A stretch of 64,000 nt of DNA from Methylococcaceae bacterium (GTDB taxonomy: Bacteria; Pseudomonadota; Gammaproteobacteria; Methylococcales; Methylomonadaceae): contig JADKAL010000009.1 of the NCBI GenBank assembly GCA_016715325.1, forward strand, positions 59,034 to 123,033, in the 5' to 3' direction. The translations under genes were made by a program, and so were the position numbers. Below are positions 8,697 to 62,197 of the stretch, piece by piece (within the stretch, counting starts at the first letter, position 1; each line of letters begins with the position of its first letter). Under the pieces are notes generated by a model. The model was not told the origin of the DNA and made no database searches. It worked only from the letters and a program-made list of their open reading frames with translations.

Positions 8697-10285
8697 ATGC
8701 AAGAAACCATACTAAAAAGCTGGCAGGAAGAACCTTGGCCAACTATTAAGTCCACTAAACCGCTGCCAATGGGTGAAGGGGTTATCGATGAGACTGCCTT
8801 TAATACACTTGAAATTGATAAGGTTTTTGACTCGGTAAATTACGCATCGACCACGACCGGGCAAGCGTTGCTGTACCGGTCGTTATGTCAGCCGCTGAGT
8901 TCGATTAAAGAACTTAAAGCAAAACAAGAGGCTGTCAAAGAACTCGAAAAAAATCAGGCGCTGAGAGAGCAAATCGAGGCTATCGTCGAAACGGTGGAGG
9001 CGAATGAAAAAAATGTTCATTTATTATTTTTCGGCGAATTTCTAGGCGCTTTCTCTCAAACTCGAGCCAAGAATGAAATCGACGGATACGGCTATCGTCA
9101 GTACAGAAACGGCGTTCAGTTTTTTCACGACACACTAAGTCAAGTTGAAGGTGTCGATACACCGAAGTCTAAATACCTGAACGAATTACTGAATAAAATA
9201 AAATCGTTCAAGAATTCCCGGTATTATTCCTTAATGGAAGGTCCCGTTTATTTTGTAGAGGGAAACATAAAAAGCAAGGAAGAGCGAGGCGGCTCTCTTT
9301 TCCCCATTCCCGTTATCTTTAAACCGCAACTTTTAAAGCCAGTTTTGTTGTCATCAATCATCGGATTAATCTGGCTTATTTCAATGTTTTCTCCTGTGGA
9401 CATCACGCCCTCATTACCAGCTGTGTCAATATTTTTAGGCCCGTTGATGCTGCTTTATTTTCCCGTCATCGGCGGATACGACCGCGATAATTGTATTATT
9501 CCATTGAGGAATCTCTACAAAAAGCCGATGAAGTGGGCGAATTTCTCGATGTTTTAGGGCAATTGGATGAATTATTTTCATTCATCAAATATGCCCAAAG
9601 TTCAACCCACCCAACAGTCATGCCAAAATTCGAGGATGCCAAGCATCACCGGATTAATCTTAAGTCGGCGGTCAATCCGGTCTTAGGAAAAGAAAATCCG
9701 GATTATGTCGGGAATGATTTCGTGCTGGACGACGATAAATTAGTTTTATTAACCGGCCCTAATAGCGGCGGTAAAACGGCATTCTGCAAAACCGTTACGC
9801 AAATACAAATTTTATCACAAATCGGTTGTTACATTCCGGCGAAGGCCGCAACAATGACGGTTGCCGATAAAGTTTTCTATCAAGTCCCCGAAATCAGCCA
9901 TTTGGATGACGGGGAAGGGCGTTTCGGTACCGAATTAAAACGGACAAAAGACATTTTCCTGGCATCCACGGCAAAAAGTCTGGTCGTATTGGACGAGCTT
10001 TCCGAAGGAACGACTTTCGAAGAAAAAATGGAAGCCTCATCCAATGTACTCAACGGTTTCTACCGGAAAGCGAATAGTACAATCCTCATTACCCATAATC
10101 ATCAATTGGTCGATTTATTTGCCAAGGAAGGAACCGGCTTGTCCATGCAAGTGGAATTCGCCAACGATGCGCCGACTTACCGGTTAATCCCCGGTATATC
10201 AAGAGTCAGCCATGCCGATCGGGTAGCGAAAAAGATCGGCTTCTCGAAAGAGGATATCGACAGTTATTTAGCGAACTCAAAATGA
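8697..10285 (+). pseudogene. Membrane-anchored MutS-family ATPase, frameshifted
   Basis: A MutS-related protein of the membrane-anchored type, not a mismatch-repair MutS1. Reading frame 1 (8697 to a stop at 9557) gives the MutS core-like helical domain and two hydrophobic segments (about residues 205-265). The second frame resumes by 9491 and gives the MutS ATPase: Walker A LLTGPNSGGKTAFCK, DDGEGRFGTELKRTKDIFL, Walker B LVVLDELSEGTTFEE, and ILITHNH. The reading frames join near 9490-9550 with one missing base, giving about 529 residues. A clear RBS (AAGGCGG) precedes the ATG, and the stop overlaps the purT start by ATGA. Function of this membrane MutS subfamily is not established. The frameshift may be a sequencing error, since both halves look well conserved. 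Confidence 0.75.
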
Positions 10286-13577: not shown

Positions 13578-14225
13578 TTATATTTCTGAAAGTTTTGGTT
13601 TCTTCTTCCTAGACACACTTAATAATCCTACTAGACCACTGAAAAATAAACAGATTGAAGCAGGGATAGGTGTTGTTATTACATATGTTTCAAAAAAAAC
13701 ATCGAAACCGTCGCCTTGATTAGTCCATTGGTTTATTTGATTATCGTAAGCAAGCATTTCACCACCGGAATATTGATTATCTGAATTGCCATTCCAAAAA
13801 CCTTGCAATCCGCCAAAACCGGGCGGCGGCGCTTTGACGTAGTTAACAATTAAAGCATACATCGATCCTGCATGAATGTTGAAATGGTCTGGGAAAATAA
13901 TTTTATTGGAAATCAGAGAAGTGCCTGAGGGAAGAATGGTTGAAAGTATTGTGTCTTGAGGAATGCCTTGTTGCGTAGACCAGAGCGACACTCTTAATTG
14001 AGACGACGCCTGTGGAATGCCCTGCACGTTAATACGAACACTTTCAAGTTTTCCCGATAAGCCTGCGGTAAATGTTTGTGCTACAAATTGACAGCATTCA
14101 TTAATAAACGAGGCTAAATTACCGCCACCTTTTTTTGTAAATGATTGATCCAGGAGCGTTGCTGCCCTTGCGGAAGGAAAAAATATTAGAATGATAAAAG
14201 CAAAACTTAATAATTTCTTATACAT
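13578..14225 (-). CDS. PEP-CTERM-like secreted protein
   Basis: A 215-residue exported protein. It has a signal peptide (MYKKLLSFAFIILIFFPSARA), a beta-rich ectodomain resembling choice-of-anchor or carbohydrate-binding modules (LESVRINVQGIPQASSQLRVSLWS) and a C-terminal sorting-type tail: ITTPIPASICLFFSGLVGLLSVSRKKK. That tail is a hydrophobic helix followed by basic residues with a PxPA motif, the VPxPA-like variant of PEP-CTERM signals handled by exosortase. No exosortase is in the window. It starts immediately upstream of the SoxYZ-like carrier on the same strand, with a 47-bp gap. Its role is probably at the cell surface or in exopolysaccharide association. Confidence 0.7.
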   Translation of the reverse strand: MYKKLLSFAFIILIFFPSARAATLLDQSFTKKGGGNLASFINECCQFVAQTFTAGLSGKLESVRINVQGIPQASSQLRVSLWSTQQGIPQDTILSTILPSGTSLISNKIIFPDHFNIHAGSMYALIVNYVKAPPPGFGGLQGFWNGNSDNQYSGGEMLAYDNQINQWTNQGDGFDVFFETYVITTPIPASICLFFSGLVGLLSVSRKKKPKLSEI

Positions 14226-14343
14226 AACCGCGTTACCTCGTGTTTATTAAATAATTAAGTTCAATTAAGGCAGAAAACAGATGCTTTTTCTGTCCCTTGC
14301 TCCAAGGCGATCAATTCGATTTGAACTTTTAGTATTTTGGTCG

Positions 14344-15843
14344 TTAACCTTTAGGCCGCATATGCGGAAACAACAACACATCTCGAATCGACGGTGCATC
14401 GGTGAATAGCATTACCAAACGGTCGATGCCGATGCCTTCGCCTGCCGTGGGAGGCATGCCGTGTTCCAGGGCGGTGATGTAGTCGGCATCAAAGTGCATG
14501 GCTTCATCGTCGCCGGCTTCTTTGTCTTCGACCTGTTTTTGGAAACGGGCGGCTTGGTCTTCTGCATCGTTCAGCTCGGTAAAGCCGTTGGCGATTTCGC
14601 GGCCACCGACGAAAAACTCAAAGCGGTCGGTGACGTGCGGATCGTTGTCGTTACGTCGTGCCAGCGGAGACACTTCAACCGGATAAGCGGTAATAAAAGT
14701 GGGGTTCATCAGCTTGCTTTCGACGGTTTTTTCAAAAATTTCGATTTGGATTTTACCTAAGCCGTAACTGTCTTTTACCGGAATCTTCAAGGCAGCGGCG
14801 ATTTTTACCGCGCCATCACGGGTGCTGATTTGCTCTAAGGTAACGCCGGGATTGAAATGCAGGATGGATTCCACCACGGTCATCCGGTCAAATGGCTTGC
14901 CGAAATCGTACTGTTCACCTTGGTAGTCAATTATGGAATGACCTACGACTTCTTGAGCGATACCGCGCAACATTTCTTCAGTCAAGTCCATTAAATCATG
15001 GTATTCGGCATAAGCCTGATAAAACTCCAGCATGGTGAATTCGGGATTATGGCGCGTGGATAGCCCTTCATTACGGAAATTGCGGTTGATTTCAAACACG
15101 CGCTCAAAACCGCCGACGGCCAAACGTTTCAAATACAATTCCGGCGCGATACGCAGGAAGATGTCCATGTCCAACGCGTTATGGTGGGTGATAAACGGGC
15201 GGGCGGTAGCACCACCGGGGATGACTTGCATCATCGGCGTTTCCACTTCCAGAAACTGCCGCTCAATCAGGAATTGACGGATATAAGCGACAATCTTTGA
15301 ACGCACCAGAAAGGTGTTGCGGGTTTCCTCGCTCATGATCAAATCCAGATAACGCTGGCGGTATTTGATCTCCTGGTCGGCTATGCCGTGAAATTTTTCC
15401 GGCAAGGGACGCAGGGCTTTGGTTAGCAGCCTTATATCATCGACCTTAATGCTGAGCTCGCCGGTCTGGGTTCTAAACAACACGCCTTCGGCACCGATGA
15501 TGTCGCCGATGTCCCATTTTTTGAATTGCTCGTTATAAAAACCTTCGGGTTGTGTGTCGCGGGTTACATACAATTGAATCTTGCCGGACATATCCTGGAT
15601 ATGCACAAAACTGGCCTTGCCCATTACTCGACGAGTCATCATTCGACCGGCGATTTTGACGCGTAAGAGTTCGGCTTCGAGGTCTTCTTTCGATTTTTCG
15701 CCGTATTCGGCTAATAGTTCACCCGCCACCACATTACGGCGAAAATCGGTAGGGAAAGCGATATTGCCGTTGTCGCGCAGTTCATTGAGTTTACTACGGC
15801 GTTGGCGGATTTGTTCTTGTTCGTCTGCTTGAGTTTCAGTCAT
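14344..15843 (-). CDS. lysS: Lysyl-tRNA synthetase, class II
   Basis: Charges tRNA-Lys. The 499-residue protein has the N-terminal OB-fold anticodon-binding domain ([32 protein letters not shown]). The class II catalytic core follows: motif 1 ([21 protein letters not shown]), motif 2 ([24 protein letters not shown]) and motif 3 ([15 protein letters not shown]). Length is normal. In many gammaproteobacteria lysS directly follows prfB; here the two are on the same strand but separated by a two-gene cassette at 15985-17828, leaving 141 bp between that cassette and lysS. Confidence 0.97.
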
Positions 15844-15984
15844 AAAAATTCAAATGAAATATTTAAAAGTTGTAAAATGTGACGATGGCTTAAATTTAGC
15901 TATAAAAATTGAGATAGATAATAAACATTATCGTAATTTAGAATACAAACATCTAAATATTGAGTTTGATTAAACTCTAATTTA

Positions 15985-16467
15985 CTATGTTTGGATGTTC
16001 CTTTTCGGGTGTCTTTTGTCAATTCGAAATAGAACGCCTTTATATAGCAAATTATCTTTGTCTATATCCTGAAAATCTGAATTACACAGTTTTATTCTAT
16101 CGATAATAAATTGAAAAAAATGCTTACCTGCCATGAGCTGTTTTAAATATTCACCTTTATTTTTTGATTTTAATTCGATTAGAAATACATAAATTTTATT
16201 ACCTTTTTGATGAACTAAAATGTAATCATTTTTAGTGCAAAGACCTTTTACAGAAGGATTGAAAAATGGAAATATAGCATCGCTTTTTGTTTGCTTGTTT
16301 TTATCGAAACTGAAACAAGATATATTATCGGAACTTTTTATTTTAATATCGACCGATAACTTTTCTTTTTCTTCAATAAGACGTAACGTATTTTTGTCGC
16401 CTTTAACTAGATGAAAGTGAAATTCATCAGGAATAACACAATTTAATAAATGAGGAAATGATTTCAT
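15985..16467 (-). CDS. Small PD-(D/E)XK nuclease-like protein, partner of the adjacent ATPase
   Basis: A 160-residue protein I cannot assign to a named family. The C-terminal half reads like a compact PD-(D/E)XK core. An aspartate in KNDYILV is followed 17 residues later by an E-L-K triad in the strand KIYVFLIELKS, then a helix with K and Q (EYLKQLMAGKHFFQF). This D...ExK plus downstream Q layout is common in restriction-type nucleases, but homology is inferred only by eye. Its start overlaps the stop of the ATPase gene by one base, so the two are translationally coupled. Base composition is much more AT-rich than flanking lysS and prfB, suggesting transfer. Best guess is the effector of a two-gene defence-type cassette. 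Confidence 0.6.
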   Translation of the reverse strand: MKSFPHLLNCVIPDEFHFHLVKGDKNTLRLIEEKEKLSVDIKIKSSDNISCFSFDKNKQTKSDAIFPFFNPSVKGLCTKNDYILVHQKGNKIYVFLIELKSKNKGEYLKQLMAGKHFFQFIIDRIKLCNSDFQDIDKDNLLYKGVLFRIDKRHPKRNIQT

Positions 16468-17828
16468 TAATCATTTAGCTCCTTTGCATCCTGCATTGCA
16501 TAATAAATCTCATTGGATGATTTATTAAGATCATTAATGACAACATCAAAGGTTTCAGCAATAATTCCTTCTTCATTATCCACCGTCATTGGTGTTATTT
16601 TTTTTTCATTAAATAGGTACGCCGTTACTCGTTTTCCTTCTAGTAATTCATTATCTTGATAACCGAATTTTTTTTGTAACTCAATTGATCCTGAAAAACC
16701 TTTTTTTAGCATTATTAAGTTATTTAATTCACGTACAAAGTAATCGCTGTGGGTGCTAACAATTACCTTTAAATCCGCATTAACTAGTTGGGCTAAAATT
16801 CGCGCTACTTGCCGTTGATTATCAGGATGTAAATTAAGCTCAGGCTCATCAATCATAAGACAATCACCTCTTTCTGCTAGGTGCTCTAAATAGAAAACCA
16901 AGCCAAAAAGAGTTTTCACGGTTGATGATCCAAAATGCAGAGGTAGTTTTTTTGTATCACTTCGGTAAGGTATAAAAAAAACGTTACCTTGACTATCAAC
17001 CTCATATTTTCCGTTCAATACCTTTTTTTGTATATTTTGGGCATACTCACGATAAATACTTTTTTGACTTTTAGTTCGGCCAATTTTATTTAAGTGTTGA
17101 ATATAGTCTTGAATTGGGTCGGCATACCTTGAGCTTATTATGTCTTTTAATAACTCCATTGGATCAACTTTATCTTTTTGGGCGTGCTGAATTAATAAAT
17201 TACGAGTGCTAGATAGTTCTTTAAAAAATAAATTCAATCCCGCTCTTTCAGCAGGTAGAAGAAATGAATCTTTTGATAAACAGGTAAAAAGAATACTAAC
17301 TAAGCTTTTTGAAATGAATTCTTGGAGCAAACTGTCTGGAATTTCTGTGTTATGTAAAGTCAATTGAATGATTTCGCTATCAGCTTCCTTTTCTAAGGAA
17401 AGAGACCAATCCTTTATTTTTCCTAATGAAAGTGTGTTTTTTGCTGGTTTTTTTATAGAACGTGCTTGTAAGTCTTCGTCATCAAAATTTAGGCGTATTG
17501 TGGTTGTATTTGAAAACTCTTCATTTGTTACACCAAATAATCGTGGCAAATACTTTTTGAAATGTTCTTCAATATGTTTAACCATTTCGATTTGGTTTGA
17601 ATTGAATACTTCTCTAACATCAAGTCGGTAAGTACCTTCTAGTTTAAGTTTTTCAATGATTTTTTTAACGAAATTAAATCGAATATCGAAATCTTTTTCT
17701 AATAGTCCATAAAGCGAATACATAACATAAGTCTTGCCTGAATTATTTTTGCCACAAAAAAGAGTGAAGTCATTAAGTTGAATACTGCCTTTTTCAATGC
17801 CACCAAGATGTTCAAAATCAATTTTCAT
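16467..17828 (-). CDS. ABC/OLD-type AAA ATPase of a putative two-gene defence cassette
   Basis: A 453-residue SMC/RecF-like ATPase (AAA_15/AAA_21 type). The N-terminus MKIDFEHLGGIEKGSIQLNDF leads into Walker A GKNNSGKT (residues 26-33). An insertion of about 200 residues follows, then an ABC-signature-like HFGSSTVKTLFGLVFYLE (about 295-315), Walker B CLMIDEPELNLHP (about 323-335) and the switch histidine VSTHSDYF (about 358). There is no TOPRIM domain, so it is not a GajA-like OLD nuclease. It starts 20 bp after the prfB stop and is followed with a 1-base overlap by a small nuclease-like gene. Such ATPases sense or gate an effector in several phage-defence systems. The exact system is not recognised. 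Confidence 0.75.
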   Translation of the reverse strand: MKIDFEHLGGIEKGSIQLNDFTLFCGKNNSGKTYVMYSLYGLLEKDFDIRFNFVKKIIEKLKLEGTYRLDVREVFNSNQIEMVKHIEEHFKKYLPRLFGVTNEEFSNTTTIRLNFDDEDLQARSIKKPAKNTLSLGKIKDWSLSLEKEADSEIIQLTLHNTEIPDSLLQEFISKSLVSILFTCLSKDSFLLPAERAGLNLFFKELSSTRNLLIQHAQKDKVDPMELLKDIISSRYADPIQDYIQHLNKIGRTKSQKSIYREYAQNIQKKVLNGKYEVDSQGNVFFIPYRSDTKKLPLHFGSSTVKTLFGLVFYLEHLAERGDCLMIDEPELNLHPDNQRQVARILAQLVNADLKVIVSTHSDYFVRELNNLIMLKKGFSGSIELQKKFGYQDNELLEGKRVTAYLFNEKKITPMTVDNEEGIIAETFDVVINDLNKSSNEIYYAMQDAKELND

Positions 17829-17848
17829 GGTTTTATCCTTTATTTGTG

Positions 17849-18947
17849 TTACAGACCGCTCTTCAAACTGGCTTCAATGAATTGATCTAACGAACCATCT
17901 AACACCGCTTGGGTATTGCCTGTTTCGACATTTGTACGTAAATCTTTTATGCGTGATTGGTCGAGCACGTAAGAACGAATCTGGCTACCCCACCCGATGT
18001 CTGATTTACTGTCTTCTAAGGTCTGTTGGATTTCGCTACGTTTGCGAAGTTCAAGTTCATATAACTTGGATTTCAACTGCTTCATCGCCGTGTCTTTGTT
18101 TTTATGCTGGGAACGGTCGCTTTGGCACTGTACGACGGTGTTGGTGGGGATGTGGGTAATTCGCACCGCCGATTCCGTCCGGTTAACGTGCTGACCGCCC
18201 GCACCGCTGGCGCGATACACATCAATGCGCAAATCGGCAGGATTAATGTCGATGTCAATGTTATCGTCCACTTCGGGAGAGACAAACACAGAGACAAACG
18301 AGGTATGGCGGCGGTTACCGGAGTCGAACGGCGATTTACGCACTAAACGATGGACGCCGGTTTCAGTCCGAAGCCAACCGAAGGCATAATCGCCTTCAAA
18401 CTTAATCGTAGCGCTTTTGATGCCCGCGACGTCACCAGGGGATTCTTCGATCAATTCGGTTTTAAAGCCTTTGGCCTCGCCCCAGCGAAGGTACATCCGC
18501 TCGATCATGGAAGCCCAGTCTTGCGCTTCCGTGCCACCAGAACCGGATTGAATATCCAAAAAGGCATTATTCGCATCCATTTCACCCGAAAACATGCGGC
18601 GGAATTCAAGATCGGCAACACGTTTTTCAAAATCGGCTAGATCGTCCACGACGGTATCAACAGTGGCTTCATCGTCTTCTTCAACCGCCATCATCAATAA
18701 TTCTTCGGCATCGGACATGCCTTGCTCTAAGTCTTTAATTGTATTAACAACAATTTCTAGCTGTCCGCGTTCTTTGCCTAAAGCTTGTGCTTGTTCCGGG
18801 TTATCCCAAATTTTCGGGTTTTCCAGTTCCCTTAAGACTTCAATGAGGCGTTCGCTTTTGTTGTCAAAGTCAAAGATACCTCCTAAGCGCGTCGCCACGG
18901 CTTTTAAGGTCTGCAATTTTGTTTTTGATGGGGTTTATTTCTTGCAT
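17849..18947 (-). CDS. prfB: Peptide chain release factor 2, with programmed +1 frameshift
   Basis: Terminates translation at UGA and UAA. The true start is ATG at 18947 ([25 protein letters not shown]), followed by the recoding site. Codon 25 is CTT, codon 26 is TGA (18872-18870) and the next base is C, preceded three bases upstream by the internal SD-like AGGAGG (18884-18879). A +1 shift gives [13 protein letters not shown] and the rest of RF2, including GGQ ([18 protein letters not shown]) and the tripeptide anticodon-like region [13 protein letters not shown]. Total product is 365 residues, the E. coli length. This is the classical autoregulatory site: low RF2 promotes frameshifting. A start annotated at 18916 in the shifted frame would be wrong. 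Confidence 0.97.
18870..18884 (-). promoter_or_regulatory. prfB: prfB programmed +1 frameshift site
   Basis: On the minus strand the order is AGGAGG (18884-18879), TAT, CTT, TGA (18872-18870), then C. This matches the conserved RF2 recoding element AGGxGG-TAT-CTT-TGA-C, with the stop at codon 26 as in E. coli. Confidence 0.97.
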
Positions 18948-19646
18948 GAAATCGATTACTACCCTTTAAAGTTTAGGCTAAAAAATTAAAATAAACCGTT
19001 AATTATAAACTATAAGCATAAGTAGGTCATAATCGGCGTGCTTCACAAAAAAACAAAATCGATTCATGTGATGACTGAAAAGTCGAACATCGACTTACAT
19101 GCGCTTCCTAAAGTTTCGTTTGCATGGATTCTATCGAAAAGCTTTATGTGTTTCGACGTGCTTTGCAATAAAGGTTATTACCATATGAAATGGCTGGATT
19201 GAAGTGTTCACTGTGTAGCCGACTTTGATGCAAAAATGAAAAATCTGTTTTTTTGATGTAAAAGTATTTGTTTTTTCATGGTTTAATACAACTTTTATGA
19301 TTATTAATGCATTGTTTTATAATGATAATTAGTCAATTTAAAGAGACAGTCAAAAAATAGTTGTGAATTTCCGTTACTTTTTTTATTTCCTTGCTATTCT
19401 TAATTCGTTATGAAAAGGTTCTTTGTTTACGGAAACTTCTCGCATACGAAATCAGGCCGTAGGTAATCTGAGGATTAGCTGATTTATTTTGGTTTAATTT
19501 TGGTTTGCATGAGGAGTTGATTGCAGTATCGCTATAAGGATCCGAATTTCAAGAATTAAAGATATGTCATGGAAAAAGAACCGTAAAACGAGCGACCTAA
19601 ACTTACAATACTATGGCATAGCCTACTTTCGACTGGGATACCAACA
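18948..19646. other. Gene-free interval upstream of the giant surface protein
   Basis: About 700 bp between the divergent prfB and the large adhesin-like gene. I see only short open frames without convincing codon use or conserved features, such as a 43-codon frame at 19072. The stretch 19240-19400 is very AT-rich and probably contains promoter sequence for the downstream gene, but I cannot fix a -35/-10 pair with confidence. No tRNA or known riboswitch was seen. Confidence 0.4.
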
Positions 19647-22600
19647 ATGTCAAATTCGCCTCGTAAACTAACATATTTGTTGGTTATTGCCGTATGCTTA
19701 ATTGCCTCTTTCGTCGTACAGGCGGCTCCGCCCGTATCTACAGACGACAAAGCGTCCACGCAGTTAAACACTCCAATTCTTATCGACGTTCTCACTAACG
19801 ATACGTCCGATGTTCCGTTAGATACCGGTACAGTGAACGTTAAAAGGCCGTACCGAAGAGGAATTGTAGCGTTACGGAGCGGGCAAGTCCGGTTTACACC
19901 CAAAGCCGGATTTATTGGCGATGAAACCTTTGCTTATACCGTTAGGGACACATTAGGATTAATTTCGAATCCGGCAACCGTGACAGTGACCGTAAACGGT
20001 GATCCGACTGATATTGCATTAAGTGCAAATACACTTACTGAGAATAACCCCGCCGGAACGACCGTAGGTAGTTTTACCACAACCGATCCTAATGCCGCCG
20101 ATACTCACATTTATACGCTTGTTGCAGGTGCAGGAAGTACTGATAATGCTGCTTTCCAAATTGCCGGTAATTCTTTGCAAACAGCGTCTGTGCTAGATTT
20201 TGAAACGAAATCCGATTTCAGCATCCGCGTGAGAAGTACGGACTCAGGCGCGGGCAGCCTGTTTTTTGAGAAAGTGTTTACGATTACTGTTACTGATCTA
20301 AATGAAGCCCCGGTATTCACCATAACGCCGACAACAAGTGTCAATGAAGATGCCGGCGCACAAACGATAAACGCCTTTGCCACAGGTATCAACGACGGCG
20401 ACGCAGGTAATGAAACGTTGGCCTTCTCTGTGACGGGCAACACCAACGTGTTGTTATTCGCAGGCGCACCGGCGCTGAGTCCGACTGGAGTGCTGACTTA
20501 TACACCTGCAGCAAATGCGAACGGCAGTGCTACCATTTCGGTTCAGTTAACGGATAGCGGTTCGAGTGTTGCCCCGAACGTCAATCAAAGCGCTATTCAG
20601 ACCTTCACTATTACTGTTAATCCGGTTAACGATGCGCCGAGTTTTACAGCCTCTAATCCGCCAGCAATCAACGAAGATTCAGGTGTTCAGTCGATTGTCG
20701 GCTGGGCTTCATTCGATCCCGGTCCGAATGAAGGTACGCAGTCGGTGCTATCGTATAACGTGAGCAACATCAGCAATCCGGGGTTGTTCAGTGCGGCTCC
20801 GAGTATTGCGAATAATGGCACGTTGAGCTATACGTCTGCACCGAATGCCAATGGTACGTCAACTTTCGATGTTGTTGTGCAAGATAACGGTACTACGGCA
20901 AATGGCGGCGTGGATACGAGCTCTACTCAAACTTTTACGATCACGGTTAATCCGGTCAATGATGCGCCTACAGCTGTAAACAAGAGCTTTAACGCACAAA
21001 CTAACATGAAAATCGGCCTCACGGGACTCCTTGCAGGAGTCACCGATGCCGATAACGGAATTAACGGTTGTACGCCGACATTTAGTGTCGCGAGCATTGG
21101 AAATCAAGTAGGTGGTACGTTCGCTCTCACGAATGCGAGTACAGGCACGTTCGATTTCGATCCGAATCCGGGTTTTACCGGAACCGCTACCGCTACGTTT
21201 ACAGTCCAGGATAACGGCTGTCCTGGCGTCGCGACGAGCGCTCCAGCGAATATTTCTGTAACAGTGGGCGGTACTCGTATCTGGTTTGTTAATGCCGCTG
21301 CAACCGGAGGCAGTAACGACGGACGCTTGAGCAATCCGTTCACTTCTTTAGCCAGTGTCGACAATGTCGATACGATAAATGACCGTATCTTCGTCTTTAG
21401 CGGAACCTATCCAACCGGCTTACTGACCTTATTCGACGGCGAGCAACTGATTGGACAAGGTGTTTCCGGTTCGGATTTCGACACCCTATTCGCAATTACA
21501 CCGCCTGCGGGAACGATTGCACGTCCGAGCATTAACGGAACGCGTCCGACGATTCAAGATACGGTGACATTGGCGAATACTAATGTTGTACGCGGATTGA
21601 ATATTTCGACAACCGGTAAACCCGCATTGGCAGATATCGTTGCCGTTATTTCGAATATGACAGTTAACGAAGTTAACGCCACTTCGAATAGTACAACGGT
21701 AAATCTGTCTCAGATCTCATCGGGTAATATCGTGCTGGATAGCACAACATCAACGGGCGGTGTCAATAATATTAGCTTGAGCAACGTATCCGCTACCGTT
21801 AATTTAGGCGGAGGCGCGTTGAGCGGCTCTACAGCGGGAGTTAGCAACCATGCTTTCCTCATCGGCGGCGGTGCGGGCAGCATTAGCTACAGCGGTAGTA
21901 TTAGCAAGGCAAACCAGGGTAACGTTGTCAATGTGTCCGGGCTTACCGGCGGAATCGTCACACTGAGTGGCACGATTAACGGAAACAGCAGTAATGGCAT
22001 CAACGTGTCCTCAAATTCCGGGGGGGCGATTAACTTTAGCGGCGCCATTAAATCACTCAATACGGGCGCAAACACCGCCTTAACCTTGTCATCCAACACG
22101 GGCGCCACAGTCAATTTCTCGGGTGGCGGCTTGGCTATCACAACCACCAGCGGTGCGGGATTCACTGCCACAGGCGGCGCGAGTGCCGTTAACGTCACTG
22201 GAACCGGCAACACCATTAACAGCACGACGGGTACGGCACTGAATGTCGCCAATACAACCGTTGGAGCATCTGGCCTTACCTTCCAAAGCATTTCTTCCAA
22301 CGCAGCTACCAACGGCATTCTATTAAACAATACCGGAACAACAAACGGTGGATTAACTGTGTCGGGAACTGGCACTGCGGGTAGCGGCGGCACGATCCAA
22401 AACTCGACCGGCACCGGCATTTTGCTCACCAGCACAAGAAATGTCGTACTGAATCGAATGAACATCACCGGAAGCGCCGACGACGGCATCGGCGGTACTA
22501 ACGTCAACGGTTTTGTGCTGGACAGTTGCCGTATCACTGGCAACGGCAATACCACGAATGCCGATTCTGGGGTGGATATGGTTAATTTGATCGGGACGGC

Positions 22601-23630
22601 CAGCGGCGGAACCAATCCGACCCGTATCGTCAATTCAACCATCAGCAATAGCTTTCTTTTCGAGATCGGCATTACCAACACCAGCGCGGGTACACTGACC
22701 AACTTGGAGATGTCCGGAAACACGCTGTCCAGTAACGGTTTGCAACTGAGTCACGGCAATCTCATGACCCTGCAAGCGCTCGGCAACGACACCATCAATT
22801 TGAATGTGACGAGCGGGACATTTACTGGCAATACCGATACCAGCGGCGGTAAAACCATTACAGCGACAGGGCTGATGTGCGACCACTCAGGAACCGGGGG
22901 GACGGTGACGTGCAATATTTCGAATGCGGATTTCACCAACAACAACGTCGGGCCGCAATCCTCGATTGCCGTGGCCGGTAACGCGGTTTTCAACTTCAAC
23001 GGCAACGATATTCAGGGCAGCCGTTCGCACGCTGTCAACTTCTTTGCCGATGCCAACTCGCCGTTTACCAAGACGCTTACTGGTAGGCCGCAAAACAATA
23101 TTATTGGTACGGCAAATATAACGGGTTCCGGCTCGACGGTAGGTTTCCCCATCCGAGTCCAAAACGAAGGCCGCGTCCCTGTTACTATGGCGATTACAGG
23201 CAACACCATCAACGAATCGGTGGGCTTTACCGGTATTAACGTAAACCACGGCATTACGACTGCGGCCGGTACCAATGCCACCAACATGACGATTACTGGC
23301 AACAACGTGAGCAATATCGACAGCGGGCGCGGTGTGCTCGTGCAACAGGTCGAAATATTAAGCCCACATAATGCCGGCACCGTGTGTACCGACATCAACA
23401 GCAACACGTTCAGCAACATCGTCGGGCAGGGGGGAGACGGTACAATCATTCGCATCCGAGAAGCCACGAATAATACCGCTGGCCCACACAATGTAAGGCA
23501 ACTCTCGCCAACCGTTGCAGTAAACGCGAACGAACTCGACGACTCCAACGGTATCACAAATCCTCTGCAGATCAGTCTGTCCGGCACACCGACCTTCGGA
23601 ACAGGAACATGCACCCAACCCACTAACTAA
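19647..23630 (+). CDS. Giant secreted cadherin-like / parallel beta-helix surface protein
   Basis: A 1327-residue exported protein with signal peptide MSNSPRKLTYLLVIAVCLIASFVVQA. Residues about 30-550 are a chain of bacterial Ig-like/cadherin-like modules: DDKASTQLNTPILIDVLTNDTSD, then repeated VNEDAGAQ/INEDSGVQ segments each ending in TFTITVNPVNDAP. Residues about 560-1300 are Gly/Asn/Ser/Thr-rich and form a right-handed parallel beta-helix-like domain (WFVNAAATGGSNDGRLSNPFTSLASVDN, then many short SGN/NNT turns). There is no C-terminal anchor, autotransporter barrel or RTX repeat, so the export route is unclear. The beta-helix part (22000-23600) is more GC-rich than the surroundings. It is followed 24 bp later by three tail-collar genes and probably heads that transcription unit. 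Confidence 0.8.
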   Translation: MSNSPRKLTYLLVIAVCLIASFVVQAAPPVSTDDKASTQLNTPILIDVLTNDTSDVPLDTGTVNVKRPYRRGIVALRSGQVRFTPKAGFIGDETFAYTVRDTLGLISNPATVTVTVNGDPTDIALSANTLTENNPAGTTVGSFTTTDPNAADTHIYTLVAGAGSTDNAAFQIAGNSLQTASVLDFETKSDFSIRVRSTDSGAGSLFFEKVFTITVTDLNEAPVFTITPTTSVNEDAGAQTINAFATGINDGDAGNETLAFSVTGNTNVLLFAGAPALSPTGVLTYTPAANANGSATISVQLTDSGSSVAPNVNQSAIQTFTITVNPVNDAPSFTASNPPAINEDSGVQSIVGWASFDPGPNEGTQSVLSYNVSNISNPGLFSAAPSIANNGTLSYTSAPNANGTSTFDVVVQDNGTTANGGVDTSSTQTFTITVNPVNDAPTAVNKSFNAQTNMKIGLTGLLAGVTDADNGINGCTPTFSVASIGNQVGGTFALTNASTGTFDFDPNPGFTGTATATFTVQDNGCPGVATSAPANISVTVGGTRIWFVNAAATGGSNDGRLSNPFTSLASVDNVDTINDRIFVFSGTYPTGLLTLFDGEQLIGQGVSGSDFDTLFAITPPAGTIARPSINGTRPTIQDTVTLANTNVVRGLNISTTGKPALADIVAVISNMTVNEVNATSNSTTVNLSQISSGNIVLDSTTSTGGVNNISLSNVSATVNLGGGALSGSTAGVSNHAFLIGGGAGSISYSGSISKANQGNVVNVSGLTGGIVTLSGTINGNSSNGINVSSNSGGAINFSGAIKSLNTGANTALTLSSNTGATVNFSGGGLAITTTSGAGFTATGGASAVNVTGTGNTINSTTGTALNVANTTVGASGLTFQSISSNAATNGILLNNTGTTNGGLTVSGTGTAGSGGTIQNSTGTGILLTSTRNVVLNRMNITGSADDGIGGTNVNGFVLDSCRITGNGNTTNADSGVDMVNLIGTASGGTNPTRIVNSTISNSFLFEIGITNTSAGTLTNLEMSGNTLSSNGLQLSHGNLMTLQALGNDTINLNVTSGTFTGNTDTSGGKTITATGLMCDHSGTGGTVTCNISNADFTNNNVGPQSSIAVAGNAVFNFNGNDIQGSRSHAVNFFADANSPFTKTLTGRPQNNIIGTANITGSGSTVGFPIRVQNEGRVPVTMAITGNTINESVGFTGINVNHGITTAAGTNATNMTITGNNVSNIDSGRGVLVQQVEILSPHNAGTVCTDINSNTFSNIVGQGGDGTIIRIREATNNTAGPHNVRQLSPTVAVNANELDDSNGITNPLQISLSGTPTFGTGTCTQPTN

Positions 23631-23654: not shown

Positions 23655-24170
23655 ATGGCAGAACCATTCTTGTCAGAAGTACGGATCATGAGTTTTGTGT
23701 TTCCGCCCAAAGGTTGGGCGCTCTGTAACGGGCAACTGTTGCCCATCAACCAGAACCAAGCTTTGTTCTCTTTGTTGGGAACGACGTTTGGCGGCGATGG
23801 GCGCGTGAACTTCGGGTTGCCGGACTTGCGCGGGCGAACGCCGATCCACGTCGGCGACAGTCACACCCTCGGCGAGCGCGGCGGGGAGCAAGCCCATACG
23901 TTGTCGATCTCGGAAATTCCGACCCATAGCCACGTTGTGAACGGATCAGGAAGCCAAGGCAATTCGTCCGACCCACGCACGGTTAGCGCAGGGAATTTAT
24001 TGGCGCAAGATCCCGGGAACGTGTATTCCCCAAATGCGGCAAGTATCGTGAGCTTAAATACCGGCAGTGTAAGCAATGTCGGAGGTAGCCAAGCCCATTT
24101 GAATATGCAACCCTTCCTCACCTTGTCTTTCTGCATCGCCTTGCAGGGCATTTTCCCATCCGCAACCTAG
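23655..24170 (+). CDS. Phage tail collar domain protein (MdpB type), copy 1
   Basis: A 171-residue microcystin-dependent-protein-B-type protein built on a tail collar domain. The N-terminus MAEPFLSEVRIMSFVFPPKGWALCNGQLLPINQNQALFSLLGTTFGGDGRVNFGLPDLRGRTPIH is the collar signature. The C-terminal part ends with GGSQAHLNMQPFLTLSFCIALQGIFPS. Such proteins resemble phage T4 short tail fibre collars and probably trimerise. No other phage structural gene is nearby, so this is a chromosomal set and not a prophage. It follows the giant surface protein by 24 bp with RBS AGGAGAA. Molecular function is unknown. Confidence 0.88.
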   Translation: MAEPFLSEVRIMSFVFPPKGWALCNGQLLPINQNQALFSLLGTTFGGDGRVNFGLPDLRGRTPIHVGDSHTLGERGGEQAHTLSISEIPTHSHVVNGSGSQGNSSDPRTVSAGNLLAQDPGNVYSPNAASIVSLNTGSVSNVGGSQAHLNMQPFLTLSFCIALQGIFPSAT

Positions 24171-24180
24171 GAGAACAGTC

Positions 24181-24684
24181 ATGGCACAACCTTATGTCGG
24201 TGAAATTCGTATGTTTGCAGGCAATTTTTCGCCTGCAGGCTGGCAGTTCTGCGATGGCTCATTGTTGTCAATTTCCGAAAATGAAGTACTGTTTAATTTG
24301 ATAGGTACGACTTATGGCGGGGATGGAGAAAGCACCTTTGCCGTGCCCGACCTGCGTGGACGGATTCCGATTCATCAGGGCAACAACTTCATCCTTGCGG
24401 AAACCGGAGGAGTGGAAGAAGTCACCTTAACTGTCAGTCAAATACCTGCCCATTCACATCCGTTACTTGGTTCAACATCAAGCGGTACTGTAACGAATCC
24501 GTCAAACGCTTTCTTAGCCAGTTCTACGGTGGTCTCGCTCTATGCCGCTGAAACCGCCAATGCAGCTATGGCGACAAACGCAATTGGTTCGGTAGGAGGA
24601 AGCCAACCGCATACGAACTTTCAGCCGTACTTATGCGTGAGCTTTATCATTTCATTGTTCGGAATATTTCCGTCGCCATCATAA
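24181..24684 (+). CDS. Phage tail collar domain protein (MdpB type), copy 2
   Basis: A 167-residue paralogue of the preceding gene, beginning 10 bp after its stop. It has the same layout: MAQPYVGEIRMFAGNFSPAGWQFCDGSLLSISENEVLFNLIGTTYGGDG, VPDLRGRIPIHQGNNFILAETGG, a variable Ser/Thr/Ala-rich middle and the conserved end GGSQPHTNFQPYLCVSFIISLFGIFPS. The middle segment differs most between the copies, suggesting different binding or partner surfaces on a common scaffold. No signal peptide is evident. Confidence 0.88.
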   Translation: MAQPYVGEIRMFAGNFSPAGWQFCDGSLLSISENEVLFNLIGTTYGGDGESTFAVPDLRGRIPIHQGNNFILAETGGVEEVTLTVSQIPAHSHPLLGSTSSGTVTNPSNAFLASSTVVSLYAAETANAAMATNAIGSVGGSQPHTNFQPYLCVSFIISLFGIFPSPS

Positions 24685-24784
24685 TGAGACTATTGGCGAC
24701 CAGCTTATAAACAAATCCAATGACATGCATGCTCAACAGTCAGTTTAACATTTTTTTAGCGTTGATTGCTTAAAGGAGAATACT

Positions 24785-25310
24785 ATGGATCCATTTGTTG
24801 CTGAAATTAGAATATTTCCGTTTAATTTTGCGCCCAGAGGCTGGGCATTTTGTGACGGTCAGTTATTGCCTTTGTCGCAGAACACGGCGCTGTTCTCTTT
24901 GCTTGGCACGACGTACGGAGGAAACGGCAAATCCAATTTTGCGCTCCCCGACCTGCAAGGTCGCGCCCCGATGTTTGATGGACAAGGCCCCGGTCTTTCT
25001 CTTCACGACCTTGGCGAAACGGGAGGCTCGGAAACCGTTTCACTTCTGGAATCTGAAATACCGTCGCATAGTCACGCGCTTATGGCAACCGTCGAAGATG
25101 GCGTGCAAGGTACGTTAACCGCCGGCATAACCCTTGCAAAATCGGTGGGCGGTGCCATTTATCAAACGACGACTAATGCAAATCTCGTGGGGATGAACCC
25201 CAACTCGTTGGCACCTGCAGGTGGCGACCAGCCTCATAACAACATGATGCCGTATCTTACGTTTTAATTTTTGTATAGCGATGCAAGGGGTTTTTCCGCC
25301 AAGGACTTAG
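24785..25310 (+). pseudogene. Phage tail collar domain protein (MdpB type), copy 3, C-terminal frameshift
   Basis: Third tandem collar paralogue (MDPFVAEIRIFPFNFAPRGWAFCDGQLLPLSQNTALFSLLGTTYGGNGKSNF). As sequenced it stops at 25267 after 160 residues, ending MMPYLTF, and lacks the conserved last strand. Removing one T from the T4 run at 25262-25265 restores FNFCIAMQGVFPPRT and a stop at 25308-25310, for 174 residues in line with copies 1 and 2. So a one-base insertion, genuine or a homopolymer error, truncates the trimer-forming end. A good RBS (AAAGGAG) precedes the ATG. Confidence 0.85.
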
Positions 25311-53424: not shown

Positions 53425-54970
53425 TTAAACATCCCCCTTCTGCGGATGCCTTCTCTGATCCGGGCTCAGCAACTTGTTGACCGCATTGATATAGGCTTTC
53501 GCCGACGCGATCACAATATCGGTATCCGCACCAAGTCCGTTGACGATACGACCGGCTTTTTCCAACCGGACTGTCACTTCGCCTTGCGCATCGGTGCCGT
53601 TGGTAATGTTATTCACGGAATAAAGCGCCAACACGGCATCGGTTTCGACAAGCTTTTCGATAGCTTTCAAACTGGCGTCGACCGCACCCCCGCCTTCGGC
53701 ATTACCTGTCACCTCCTTGTTGTCGATGCGAATCGTAACCTTCGCATTGGGGACTTCGCCGGTTTCCGAACAAACCTTCAAGGCGACGAGTTTAATATGC
53801 TCGTCTTCCGCTTCAAAGCCGACTTCCGAAATCAAGGCTTGTAAATCTTCGTCGAAGATCTCGTGTTTTTTATCGGCAAGGTTTTTAAACCGGGCGAAAG
53901 CATCGTTCAGTTCTTCTTCCGATTGAAATTCCACGCCCAATTCCATCATCCTGCTTTTAAAGGCATTCCGTCCTGAATGTTTACCCAACACCATCCGATT
54001 TGCCGACCAGCCCACGTCTTCCGCCCGCATGATTTCGTAAGTCTCGCGGCTTTTCAAGACGCCGTCTTGATGGATGCCGGCCTCATGCGCAAATGCATTG
54101 GCGCCGACAATGGCCTTGTTCGGTTGTACCGGAAAGCCGGTAATCGACGATACCAATTTGGAACAGGTTAATATTTCCCGTGTATCGATCCGGGTTTGAC
54201 ATGGAAAGACGTCGTGACGCGTTCGCACCGACATCACCACTTCCTCAAGCGAGGCATTGCCGGCACGTTCGCCCAATCCGTTAATCGTACATTCGACTTG
54301 CCGTGCGCCGTTCAAGACGGCGGAAAGCGAATTCGCCACCGCCAAGCCTAAGTCGTTATGGCAATGCACCGAAAATATCGCCTTGTCGGCGTTCGGTATA
54401 CGATTCCGTAAGTTGGCGATTGTGGCGCCGAACTGATGGGGCAAACTATATCCGACCGTATCGGGTATGTTTAATGTCGTCGCACCCGCATCAATGACGG
54501 CTTCCAAAATCCGGCACAAGAAATCTTCTTCCGACCGACCCGCATCTTCAGGCGAAAACTCGACATCGTCGGTAAACTGCCGTGCCCTTTTAACCGCTTT
54601 TACGGCGTATTCAATCACCTGTTCCGGCTGCATGTGCAATTTCATCTGCATGTGGATCGGTGATGTGGCGATAAAGGTGTGTATTCTGGAGTGGCTTGCG
54701 CCTTTGAGCGCCTCGCCTGCCCCTGTCTATATCCTTATCTAAGGCTCTAGCCAACCCGCATACGATACTGTCCTTAATGATATTCGCCACGGCTTGAACG
54801 GACTCGAAATCGCCCGGACTCGCAGCCGGAAAACCGGCTTCTATCACATCGACTCTCAAACGCTCCAAGGCTCTGGCAATACGAATTTTTTCATCGCGCG
54901 TCATCGACGCGCCGGGGCTTTGTTCACCATCCCGCAAGGTGGTGTCAAAAATTATCAATTGGTCTTTCAT
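53425..54970 (-). pseudogene. leuA: 2-isopropylmalate synthase, frameshifted
   Basis: First committed step of leucine synthesis: condenses acetyl-CoA and 2-oxoisovalerate. The start is ATG 54970 ([23 protein letters not shown]) with RBS GGAG. The HMGL-like barrel includes LRDGEQ, the metal site in [16 protein letters not shown] and [18 protein letters not shown] LeuA dimer/regulatory domain follows (about 390-510). The frame breaks in a G4 run (C4 at 54720-54723). Dropping one base changes [10 protein letters not shown] into [25 protein letters not shown] and rejoins [20 protein letters not shown], for 514 residues, a normal LeuA length. A real knockout would make the cell a leucine auxotroph, so the indel is probably a sequencing error. 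Confidence 0.92.
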
Positions 54971-55007
54971 TGTAAACTCCATCAATGGATGGCAATAGGC
55001 TACTCAT

Positions 55008-55112
55008 TCAATAGCCAAGTAATAAAAAGAGGGTTAATTTTTTATGAAAAAAGAATTGAATGCCCGCTAGGGCAGGATTCTCAAGAGCAGGAACAGGCGC
55101 AGACACAAACAT
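55008..55112 (-). promoter_or_regulatory. Possible leucine-rich leader peptide upstream of leuA
   Basis: ATG 55112 opens a 34-codon frame ending at 55008, 38 bp before the leuA start. Its last residues are KLTLFLLLGY, with five Leu codons (TTA, CTC, TTA, TTA, CTT) in a nine-codon run. An AGG-type RBS precedes it. GGCTA/TAGCC and CCATC/GATGG stems follow near the leuA RBS. This fits a leucine-responsive attenuation leader by logic only; no long U-tailed terminator is visible. Confidence 0.3.
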
Positions 55113-55222
55113 ACACCAGCCTTTGCAAATACAAAGCCGCCGTTTAAAACTGAAATATGTTTGTTGTTTTGAAAAGTCATGACAAAACTATAACTTAACG
55201 AACTCTATCTCTCAAGTAGAAT

Positions 55223-55990
55223 CTACAATTTACGTTCTTGTAATCGCCGTTTACGCATGATCAGCGTTAATACCGGACCTGAAACGGCATAGCCTAAAGC
55301 CAGCAAAAACAACATCGTCTCCGGTTGCGCCATGACGAAAGCGATGGCTAACATTACCGATATGGCAACAATGAAAGGCACTTTTCCCCTTAAATCGATT
55401 TCCTTAAAGCTGTAATACCGAAAGTTGCTCACCATCAACAAGCCGGTGCAAATTGTCAGTACAATAGAAGGATATTTGACGACTTCGATTGGGTATTGAT
55501 GTTCAAGGGACATCCAAATAAATCCCGCCAGGACTGCCGCCGCCGCCGGACTTGCCAAGCCTTGAAAATAACGTCTATCGGCCGTACCCACCTGAGTATT
55601 AAAACGCGCCAACCTTAATGCACCGCCCGCCATATGCACGAATGCGGCAAATAAACCCAGCTTACCCATCCCTGAAAAAGCCCAAAGGTACATAACCAGT
55701 GCCGGTGCGACCCCAAAAGAGGTCATATCGGAAAGACTATCGTACTGAACGCCAAATTCGCTTTGCGTATTGGTCAAGCGAGCAACACGGCCATCTAGGC
55801 CGTCTAATATCATCGCGATAAAAATGGCGATTACCGCCGTTTCATAGCGGCCTCCGATAGCGGATGTTATCGCATAGTAACCGGAAAATAACGCGCCGGT
55901 GGTCAACAAATTAGGTAATAAATAAATGCCGCGACGACGAATCGAGCGTTTTTCGGGTTTGTTCATTTTTACAGTATTTGCTTTTAACAT
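55223..55990 (-). CDS. pssA: CDP-diacylglycerol--serine O-phosphatidyltransferase
   Basis: Integral membrane enzyme making phosphatidylserine from CDP-diacylglycerol and serine. The 255-residue protein begins MLKANTVKMNKPEKRSIRRRGIYLLPNLLTTGALFSGYYAI (ATG 55990; a second ATG at 55966 is possible). It has the CDP-alcohol phosphotransferase motif D-G-x2-A-R-x8-G-x3-D-x3-D spanning LDGLDGRVARLTNTQSEFGVQYDSLSDMTSFGVAPALV. Six to eight hydrophobic helices follow, ending RKRRLQERKL. This is the short PssA type. It precedes leuA on the same strand; pssA next to leuA is common in related genomes. Confidence 0.92.
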   Translation of the reverse strand: MLKANTVKMNKPEKRSIRRRGIYLLPNLLTTGALFSGYYAITSAIGGRYETAVIAIFIAMILDGLDGRVARLTNTQSEFGVQYDSLSDMTSFGVAPALVMYLWAFSGMGKLGLFAAFVHMAGGALRLARFNTQVGTADRRYFQGLASPAAAAVLAGFIWMSLEHQYPIEVVKYPSIVLTICTGLLMVSNFRYYSFKEIDLRGKVPFIVAISVMLAIAFVMAQPETMLFLLALGYAVSGPVLTLIMRKRRLQERKL

Positions 55991-61416: not shown

Positions 61417-62197
61417 TTAGATACAATGGGGCTGCTTACCCATGTTTTGTGCTTGTTGAAAAAGGCCCATTGCTTGCGGCATGTGCCGTTCCAAATCTTG
61501 GATGCGGGTGGCATGAGACGGGTGAGTCGACATAAACTCAATCGGTTGTTTGCCCTGGGTTGCTTGATCCATTCGTTGCCACAACCCGATGCTGTGTCGC
61601 GGATCGAACCCTGCTTTAGCCATTAAATCGACACCGATCATATCGGCTTCGCTCTCTTGAGTTCTGCCATAAGGTTTTAAAACACCGTATTCAGCCCCTA
61701 CGCCCAGCAAGCCGAAACCGAGTTGTCCCAGGGGAGAAGTCGGCATCGTCAACGCTTGTAAAATATTCAACCCTTGGCTCATGGCCATTTCTTGCGAAGC
61801 GTTCGTTACTGTGCTTTGCCAACACATGGCCGACCTCATGCCCGATAACGGCGGCAAGTTGTTCTTGATTATCGGCCAATTGCAACATGCCGGTATGGAC
61901 ACCGATTTTATTGCCGGGCAAGGCAAACGCATTGGGCGTCTTGTCTTCAAAGACAACCACTTCCCACTTTCCACCCGTTACATTGGTAATAGCTTGAGCG
62001 ATACAACGTGTCGATTTATTGTATTGCGGATTCAAGCTGATTTTTTTATCCCGTTTTAAGGTATTGAATGCCTGCAACCCCATCTGGTCGACCTGGTTTT
62101 CAGGCAGCATGATGAACTGGCTTCTGCCGGTAGGACTGGTCGCGCAAGACGTTGTTAAACAGGCAATAATGACAATAGGAAATAATTTGTTAAACAT
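61417..62197 (-). pseudogene. M48 family metallopeptidase lipoprotein, frameshifted
   Basis: A LoiP/YggG-like zinc peptidase lipoprotein. The signal peptide MFNKLFPIVIIACLTTSCAT has lipobox TTSC. The body shows NAFALPGNKIGVHTGMLQLA and the zinc motif AAVIGHEVGHVLAKHSNER. The frame then runs into nonsense (NGHEPRVEYF). Shifting one base near 61794-61802 restores SQEMAMSQGLNILQALTMPTSP, then QESEADMIGVDLMAKAGFDPRHSIGLWQRMDQ, FMSTHPSHATRIQDLERHMPQA and a stop at 61417, about 259 residues as in the family. It probably degrades misfolded outer-membrane proteins. The event is a single-base change in ordinary sequence. Confidence 0.85.

Follow-up and report, generated by a model that had tools for sequence, protein, structure and literature searches.

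PD-T4-4 was named in a study that selected for anti-phage genes by function (Vassallo et al. 2022, PMC9519451), where the E. coli system sits in an element resembling an integrative and conjugative element. WonAB and operons combining an OLD-ABC ATPase with a Novel REase are described as similar to PD-T4-4 in PMC12137116, where WonAB is prophage-borne and causes abortive infection through translation arrest. The core defence hotspots cDHS1 and cDHS2 of Pseudomonas aeruginosa have medians of 26 and 6 kb, tRNA or tmRNA genes in their flanks and a detectable mobile gene at 71% and 53% of sites (PMC10250203), and in E. coli many defence-island hotspots travel on prophages, satellites or elements with an integrase (PMC10121019). 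In the present study, we analyzed a 64,000-nucleotide (nt) stretch from a Methylococcaceae bacterium (contig JADKAL010000009.1, positions 59,034 to 123,033; hereafter the window), in which two genes, A and B, separate prfB, encoding release factor 2 (RF2), from lysS. The pair is probably an anti-phage cassette of the PD-T4-4 type, placed in a defence slot with exchangeable content that gammaproteobacterial methanotrophs carry within the prfB-lysS operon. This reading has its basis in the sequence, which shows that both genes belong to the PD-T4-4 family, that they lie in this junction and run with the operon at close spacing, that unrelated cassettes recur in the slot and that it is empty in close relatives.

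The open reading frames (ORFs) of the window gave the minus-strand order prfB (17849..18947, with its ATG at 18947 and its stop codon at 17849-17851), A (16467..17828), B (15985..16467) and lysS (14344..15843). A spacer of 20 nt (17829..17848), containing an AAGGA-like ribosome site, lies between the prfB stop and A, and spacers of 16-20 nt were observed in the PD-T4-4 cassettes of related species placed directly behind prfB. A and B overlap as TAATG, and the GC content of the pair was 0.28-0.34 vs about 0.43-0.52 over prfB and lysS in 500-base windows. These results confirmed the AT-rich, co-directional and overlapping gene pair that an earlier sequence-only reading had reported at this junction.

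A encodes an OLD/ABC-type ATPase of 453 amino acids (aa), in which a Walker A motif (GKNNSGKT, residues 26-33) and a Walker B/D-loop, CLMIDEPELNLHP, were legible and no TOPRIM domain was matched by Pfam. The protein matched the PADLOC model PD-T4-4_A over its full length (PDLC04033, 471.7 bits, residues 1-446, profile 1-459 of 460). B, a PD-(D/E)XK-like protein of 160 aa as read, matched PD-T4-4_B (PDLC04037, 113.6 bits, residues 8-150, profile 9-148 of 190), with the C-terminal end of the profile left unmatched. D81 and E98-x-K100 of B were invariant in alignments of 17 sequences, window included, and of 25, as were E32 and Q110. Because both proteins match the PADLOC models of PD-T4-4, the pair is assigned by sequence to this known anti-phage family and is not a new module. 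The sequence-only reading had taken the pair for an ATPase with a small nuclease-like partner following the logic of antiphage systems, and this part held up; its suggestion of a new or little-described module did not. It had also set the pair apart from Gabija, Septu and PARIS, whose ABC/OLD-type ATPases share the broad fold of A, and the domains found by Pfam and PADLOC bore this out. Gabija was rejected since neither A nor B carries a TOPRIM or helicase domain in Pfam and B matches PD-T4-4_B, Septu since B lacks an HNH or PtuB match, and PARIS since B lacks a DUF4435 or AriB match. WonAB has the same architecture as the pair, a comparison made by description and not by sequence; its ATPase inserts and C-terminal extension are reported as different in PMC12137116, and no WonAB match was listed for the pair in the 2023 PADLOC scan. 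The pair shares with the E. coli PD-T4-4 system an ABC/OLD-like ATPase beside a PD-(D/E)XK-like protein, but it differs in lying between housekeeping genes with no recognised mobility gene, in the low identity of the listed plasmid relatives of A, and in a B shortened by a frame break.

The distribution of A relatives bears on whether the pair is a truly new system with only a superficial likeness to PD-T4-4. Relatives of A at ≥63% identity were found in 8 genomes of the family searched, and in 7 of these they occupied the prfB-lysS slot; for the eighth, G159, the visible stretch included no flank gene. For 17 more distant copies (≤54% identity), neither prfB nor lysS lay within the available stretch. 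The 33 plasmid and three phage records with A relatives were all below 60% identity; the plasmid matches listed (20 of 33) were 26-32% identical and the phage records, all from Vibrio phages, 28%. A scan of viral_contigs gave 6 pattern matches, none of them a relative. A protein found elsewhere, P0039, was 96% identical to A. The concentration of the nearest relatives in this junction, the low identity of plasmid and phage copies and the lack of a named Pfam or NCBIfam family for B would fit a new system, but the very strong full-length match of A and the significant match of B in adjacent genes are against it. This explanation is disfavoured already, and we regard it as very improbable. Foldseek on the B structure, taken alone, was uninformative.

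The 3' end of B raises the question of whether the cassette is dead in this strain. Among the other B proteins listed, 32 of 36 were 183-204 aa long, and most of those aligned share a conserved C-terminal tail. In the window, this tail (KLEFNQT...YYLSQFL) was legible at 15900..15983 on the minus strand in a frame different from that of ORF B, so that about the last 27 residues are out of frame in this assembly and B stops at 160 aa. A tail lost by frameshift would suit a locus on its way out, as would the decayed cassette footprints in other species and a second B protein, P0002 (163 aa, 87% identical), which likewise ends ahead of the conserved tail. On the other side, three other conserved genes of the window (names by eye) are also split between frames: a MutS-like gene (8697-10285, near 9.5 kb), leuA (53425-55230, near 54.7 kb) and an M48 peptidase-like gene (61417-62197, near 61.8 kb), which suggested indel errors in the assembly. 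In addition, the rest of the pair looks constrained: compared with locus L105, the ratio of nonsynonymous to synonymous substitution rates (dN/dS) was about 0.06 for A and about 0.08 over the first 147 codons of B, with dS near saturation in both, and the invariant B residues precede the break. Intact B copies were present in relatives. An indel-prone assembly is the simplest cause of the break, which may alternatively be genuine decay; a dead cassette is unlikely.

To describe the occupancy of the junction, we searched 201 genomes in the family of a close relative, G001 (the genome of locus L014), inferred to be the family of Methylomonas since G003 and G004 hold loci L002 and L003. The search detected LysS in 183 genomes and PrfB in 184, with places listed, best matches first, for 150 and 149. 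Both genes were listed in 129 genomes, and after dropping 10 with the genes on different contigs, 119 junctions on one contig and strand were readable. The gap between prfB and lysS was <200 nt in 55, 200-400 nt in 4 and ≥400 nt in 60, and the inserts of the 60 occupied junctions measured 434-3696 nt (median 1836). The control pair rpsB-tsf, sought in 121 genomes of this family, could be read in 108; its domain matches always lay 372-635 nt apart, with no comparable insertion in any genome. Among the 64 genomes with both pairs readable, the prfB-lysS gap was ≥400 nt in 28, vs none with an rpsB-tsf distance >1000. The pair was not fixed across the whole order, and empty sites were present in near relatives of the window host, where the sequence-only reading had proposed to look for them; its idea that the prfB-lysS junction serves as an insertion site is strongly supported by the occupancy of 60 of 119 family junctions. 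Use of the slot is far lower in the G007 family (38 genomes), where 2 junctions, those of G007 and G229, were occupied among the 28 that could be read (counted by eye).

We then considered whether the junction is a permissive gap for any gene, without selection for operon-borne defence. All 60 occupied junctions were read; ORFs were taken as the longest non-overlapping frames of ≥60 aa and grouped into 38 clusters, 36 cargo proteins were scanned with their labels passed on to their clusters, and state labels were set by hand. Clusters c27, c32, c33, c34 and c36 (one ORF each) were left unscanned, c29 was scanned by PADLOC only and c7 by Pfam only. By locus, the most frequent cargos were a HEPN pair (11/60), HEC-01 (AAA + DUF4276; 10/60) and DUF433/DUF5615 (10/60), followed by photolyase and DUF4326/SLOG (7/60 each), PD-T4-4 and RelB/YafQ (6/60 each), and PilZ and NYN-OST-HTH (4/60 each). 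Present at 2/60 loci each were Type II restriction-modification (R-M) sets, Type II restriction enzymes adjoining sequence akin to the L115 methylase (L128, L141), Mrr, GmrSD_N/NsnA-like proteins with HEPN, PDC-M19, DUF488 (PDC-M45C), DuOB, DUF4160/DUF2442 and PIN, and at 1/60 each HEC-02, a HEC-04-like ATPase and a DUF4276-like ORF. One locus, L116, stacks three modules, each of which is found alone in other species. Photolyase, PilZ and NYN genes are what a permissive gap would admit, and the cargo shares lack a background sample of other variable slots. On the other hand, a known or candidate defence family named by PADLOC occurred in 30 of the 60 junctions, and such a family or a toxin-antitoxin, HEPN or PIN module in 53 (45 after removal of the unproven HEPN pair), leaving 7 with neither; on the shares of 30/60 and 53/60, taken without background slots, we counted the slot as enriched in defence, as in a core defence hotspot. 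Furthermore, 143 of 146 cargo ORFs share the direction of the operon. Finally, among the best 80 LysS relatives of genome_contigs, 71 had a prfB match in view, and the gap was ≤280 nt in 68 of these (L072 on a weak partial prfB match) and ≥400 nt in only 3 (L002, L003 and L050), all methanotrophs. A merely permissive gap is a possible but doubtful explanation.

Several tenants were observed in their own right. The commonest was a HEPN protein with a protein of about 150 aa (L103:405-1237 and 10 further junctions), whose scanned copy had no PADLOC match; it may perhaps be an undescribed defence or toxin-antitoxin system. Proteins joining NYN to OST-HTH/LOTUS recurred in L144, L145, L152 and L159. 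Both occupied slots of the G007 family hold an AIPR/AbiU-type protein (L050:4213-5895 and, in G229, L256:77-1786; 77% identical), a tenant that differs from those of the main family.

To follow the turnover of the cargo, a host tree was built from PrfB and LysS of the window and of the 60 genomes, out of 119, whose LysS was most similar (61 species); composite cargo was treated as its own state, the counts are given without a shuffled-label control, and 17 of 58 inner branches were weakly supported. On this tree, the cargo state changed at least 30 times and the empty/occupied state at least 15 times. The hosts nearest the window carry a HEPN pair (G105), an empty slot (G026), a BsoBI-like R-M set (G092) and an empty slot (G051), and PD-T4-4 occurred in several separate clades. 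Remnants record earlier tenants of the slot: L146 retains 20 residues of PD-T4-4_A straight after prfB, and others were photolyase in L107, DUF4326 in L113 and L137, and NYN and DUF4160/DUF2442 in L162. As in a core hotspot, the flanking core genes stay the same and the cargo varies in both occurrence and content (55/119 junctions <200 nt, 60/119 ≥400 nt, at least 30 changes). Several points weigh against an exchangeable PD-T4-4 cassette. Besides the out-of-frame tail of B, cargo proteins seldom exceed host identity, which counts against easy horizontal transfer; the tree-conflict test for PD-T4-4 was one-sided and used a weakly supported host tree of 8; and the PrfB and LysS tree may itself be affected by recombination with cargo. 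Recent horizontal transfer of PD-T4-4 was not shown by the comparison of cargo with host identity.

Compared with the described hotspots, the slot resembles cDHS1 and cDHS2 (PMC10250203) in fixed core-gene flanks, many different defence systems and no single mobile element, and the E. coli hotspots (PMC10121019) in core-gene-flanked integration sites with variable defence cargo. Unlike cDHS1 and cDHS2, it lies between two neighbouring genes of translation, its inserts measure 0.4-3.7 kb and are nearly all co-directional, and it showed neither a mobility gene among the scanned families nor a tRNA gene in the fetched loci. Delivery of cassettes by an unrecognised mobile element, site-specific at the prfB stop codon, would agree with the position of the first cargo ORF, which starts a median of 27.5 nt past the prfB stop, and with the leader common to the PD-T4-4 copies. 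Against this, no integrase, transposase or recombinase occurred among the scanned cargo families, no convincing direct repeats flanked the cassette in the window, and neither the window nor the 60 fetched occupied loci, most reaching just about 90 nt into each flank, held a tRNA or tmRNA gene. Within this scope, the tRNA/tmRNA flanks or mobile genes of the cDHS sites were lacking. An integrase or tRNA-targeted element was rejected because no such gene or convincing repeat was found, and we regard an unrecognised element as quite improbable. An Rfam scan at gathering thresholds gave no match. The slot is a core defence hotspot of unusual form: small, co-directional, between adjacent translation genes and with no recognised mobility gene.

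The slot itself is a more interesting discovery than the cassette. In the open PubMed Central literature, whose coverage excludes subscription papers and most preprints, none of the titles and abstracts listed by the searches described a prfB-lysS hotspot; the only paper there combining prfB, lysS and hotspot concerns gene loss in Blochmannia. Phage defence in methanotrophs was not the topic of any title among the matches listed, defence terms gave no relevant result in PMC12810054, and the main text of PMC10121019, as far as available, does not mention prfB or lysS. What had been a suspected single cassette becomes a defined chromosomal slot, of a size suited to the polymerase chain reaction and readable across gammaproteobacterial methanotrophs, bacteria that matter for methane fluxes. 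Surveys of the slot can uncover defence systems, among them candidates that still lack a name, such as the HEPN pair. The results suggested that immune cassettes can enter and leave the space between two essential translation genes with no mobile element in evidence, making integrase-free movement of defence genes a directly testable question.

For the PD-T4-4 cassette, expression would be by read-through from the prfB promoter. Read-through from this housekeeping promoter is plausible because the genes are co-directional, the spacing is 20 nt and promoter-like matches are no more than expected by chance. Over 14000-19700, 13 promoter-like matches were found vs 14.1 expected and 3 terminator-like matches vs 6.2 expected; a promoter of the cassette's own was rejected, as such matches did not exceed expectation. 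A may act as a dimeric ABC-ATPase that detects a product of the phage and then licenses B; B, as a PD-(D/E)XK nuclease, would cut nucleic acid, perhaps RNA. Infection would then be aborted, most likely through a translation stop by analogy with WonAB. Cassettes would be swapped or removed when the conserved genes on either side recombine, without an integrase of their own.

A bolder proposal, which we consider distinctly unlikely, is that the slot acts as a translation-coupled immune socket: the RF2 operon would express cassettes in step with the translation apparatus, which would explain their retention, and swapping would proceed by flanking homology alone. Many of the cargos that recur belong to types with effectors known or suspected to target RNA or translation, namely HEPN, YafQ, PIN, NYN, AbiU/AIPR and PD-T4-4/WonAB-like systems. 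If true, the operon would serve as both supplier and sensor of the process halted by the effectors. The first gene of this operon, prfB, is tuned by a release-factor-sensitive frameshift. The programmed +1 frameshift signal of RF2, AGGAGGTATCTTTGAC, was kept in prfB at about 18869-18884, and we take it to be the RF2 autoregulatory site.

The ORF list began prfB at 18916 and missed its true start at 18947. Elsewhere in the window, three tandem paralogues at 23655-25267 come after a gene for a repeat protein of 1327 aa (19647-23630); they presumably resemble tail-collar/microcystin-dependent (MdpB-like) proteins.
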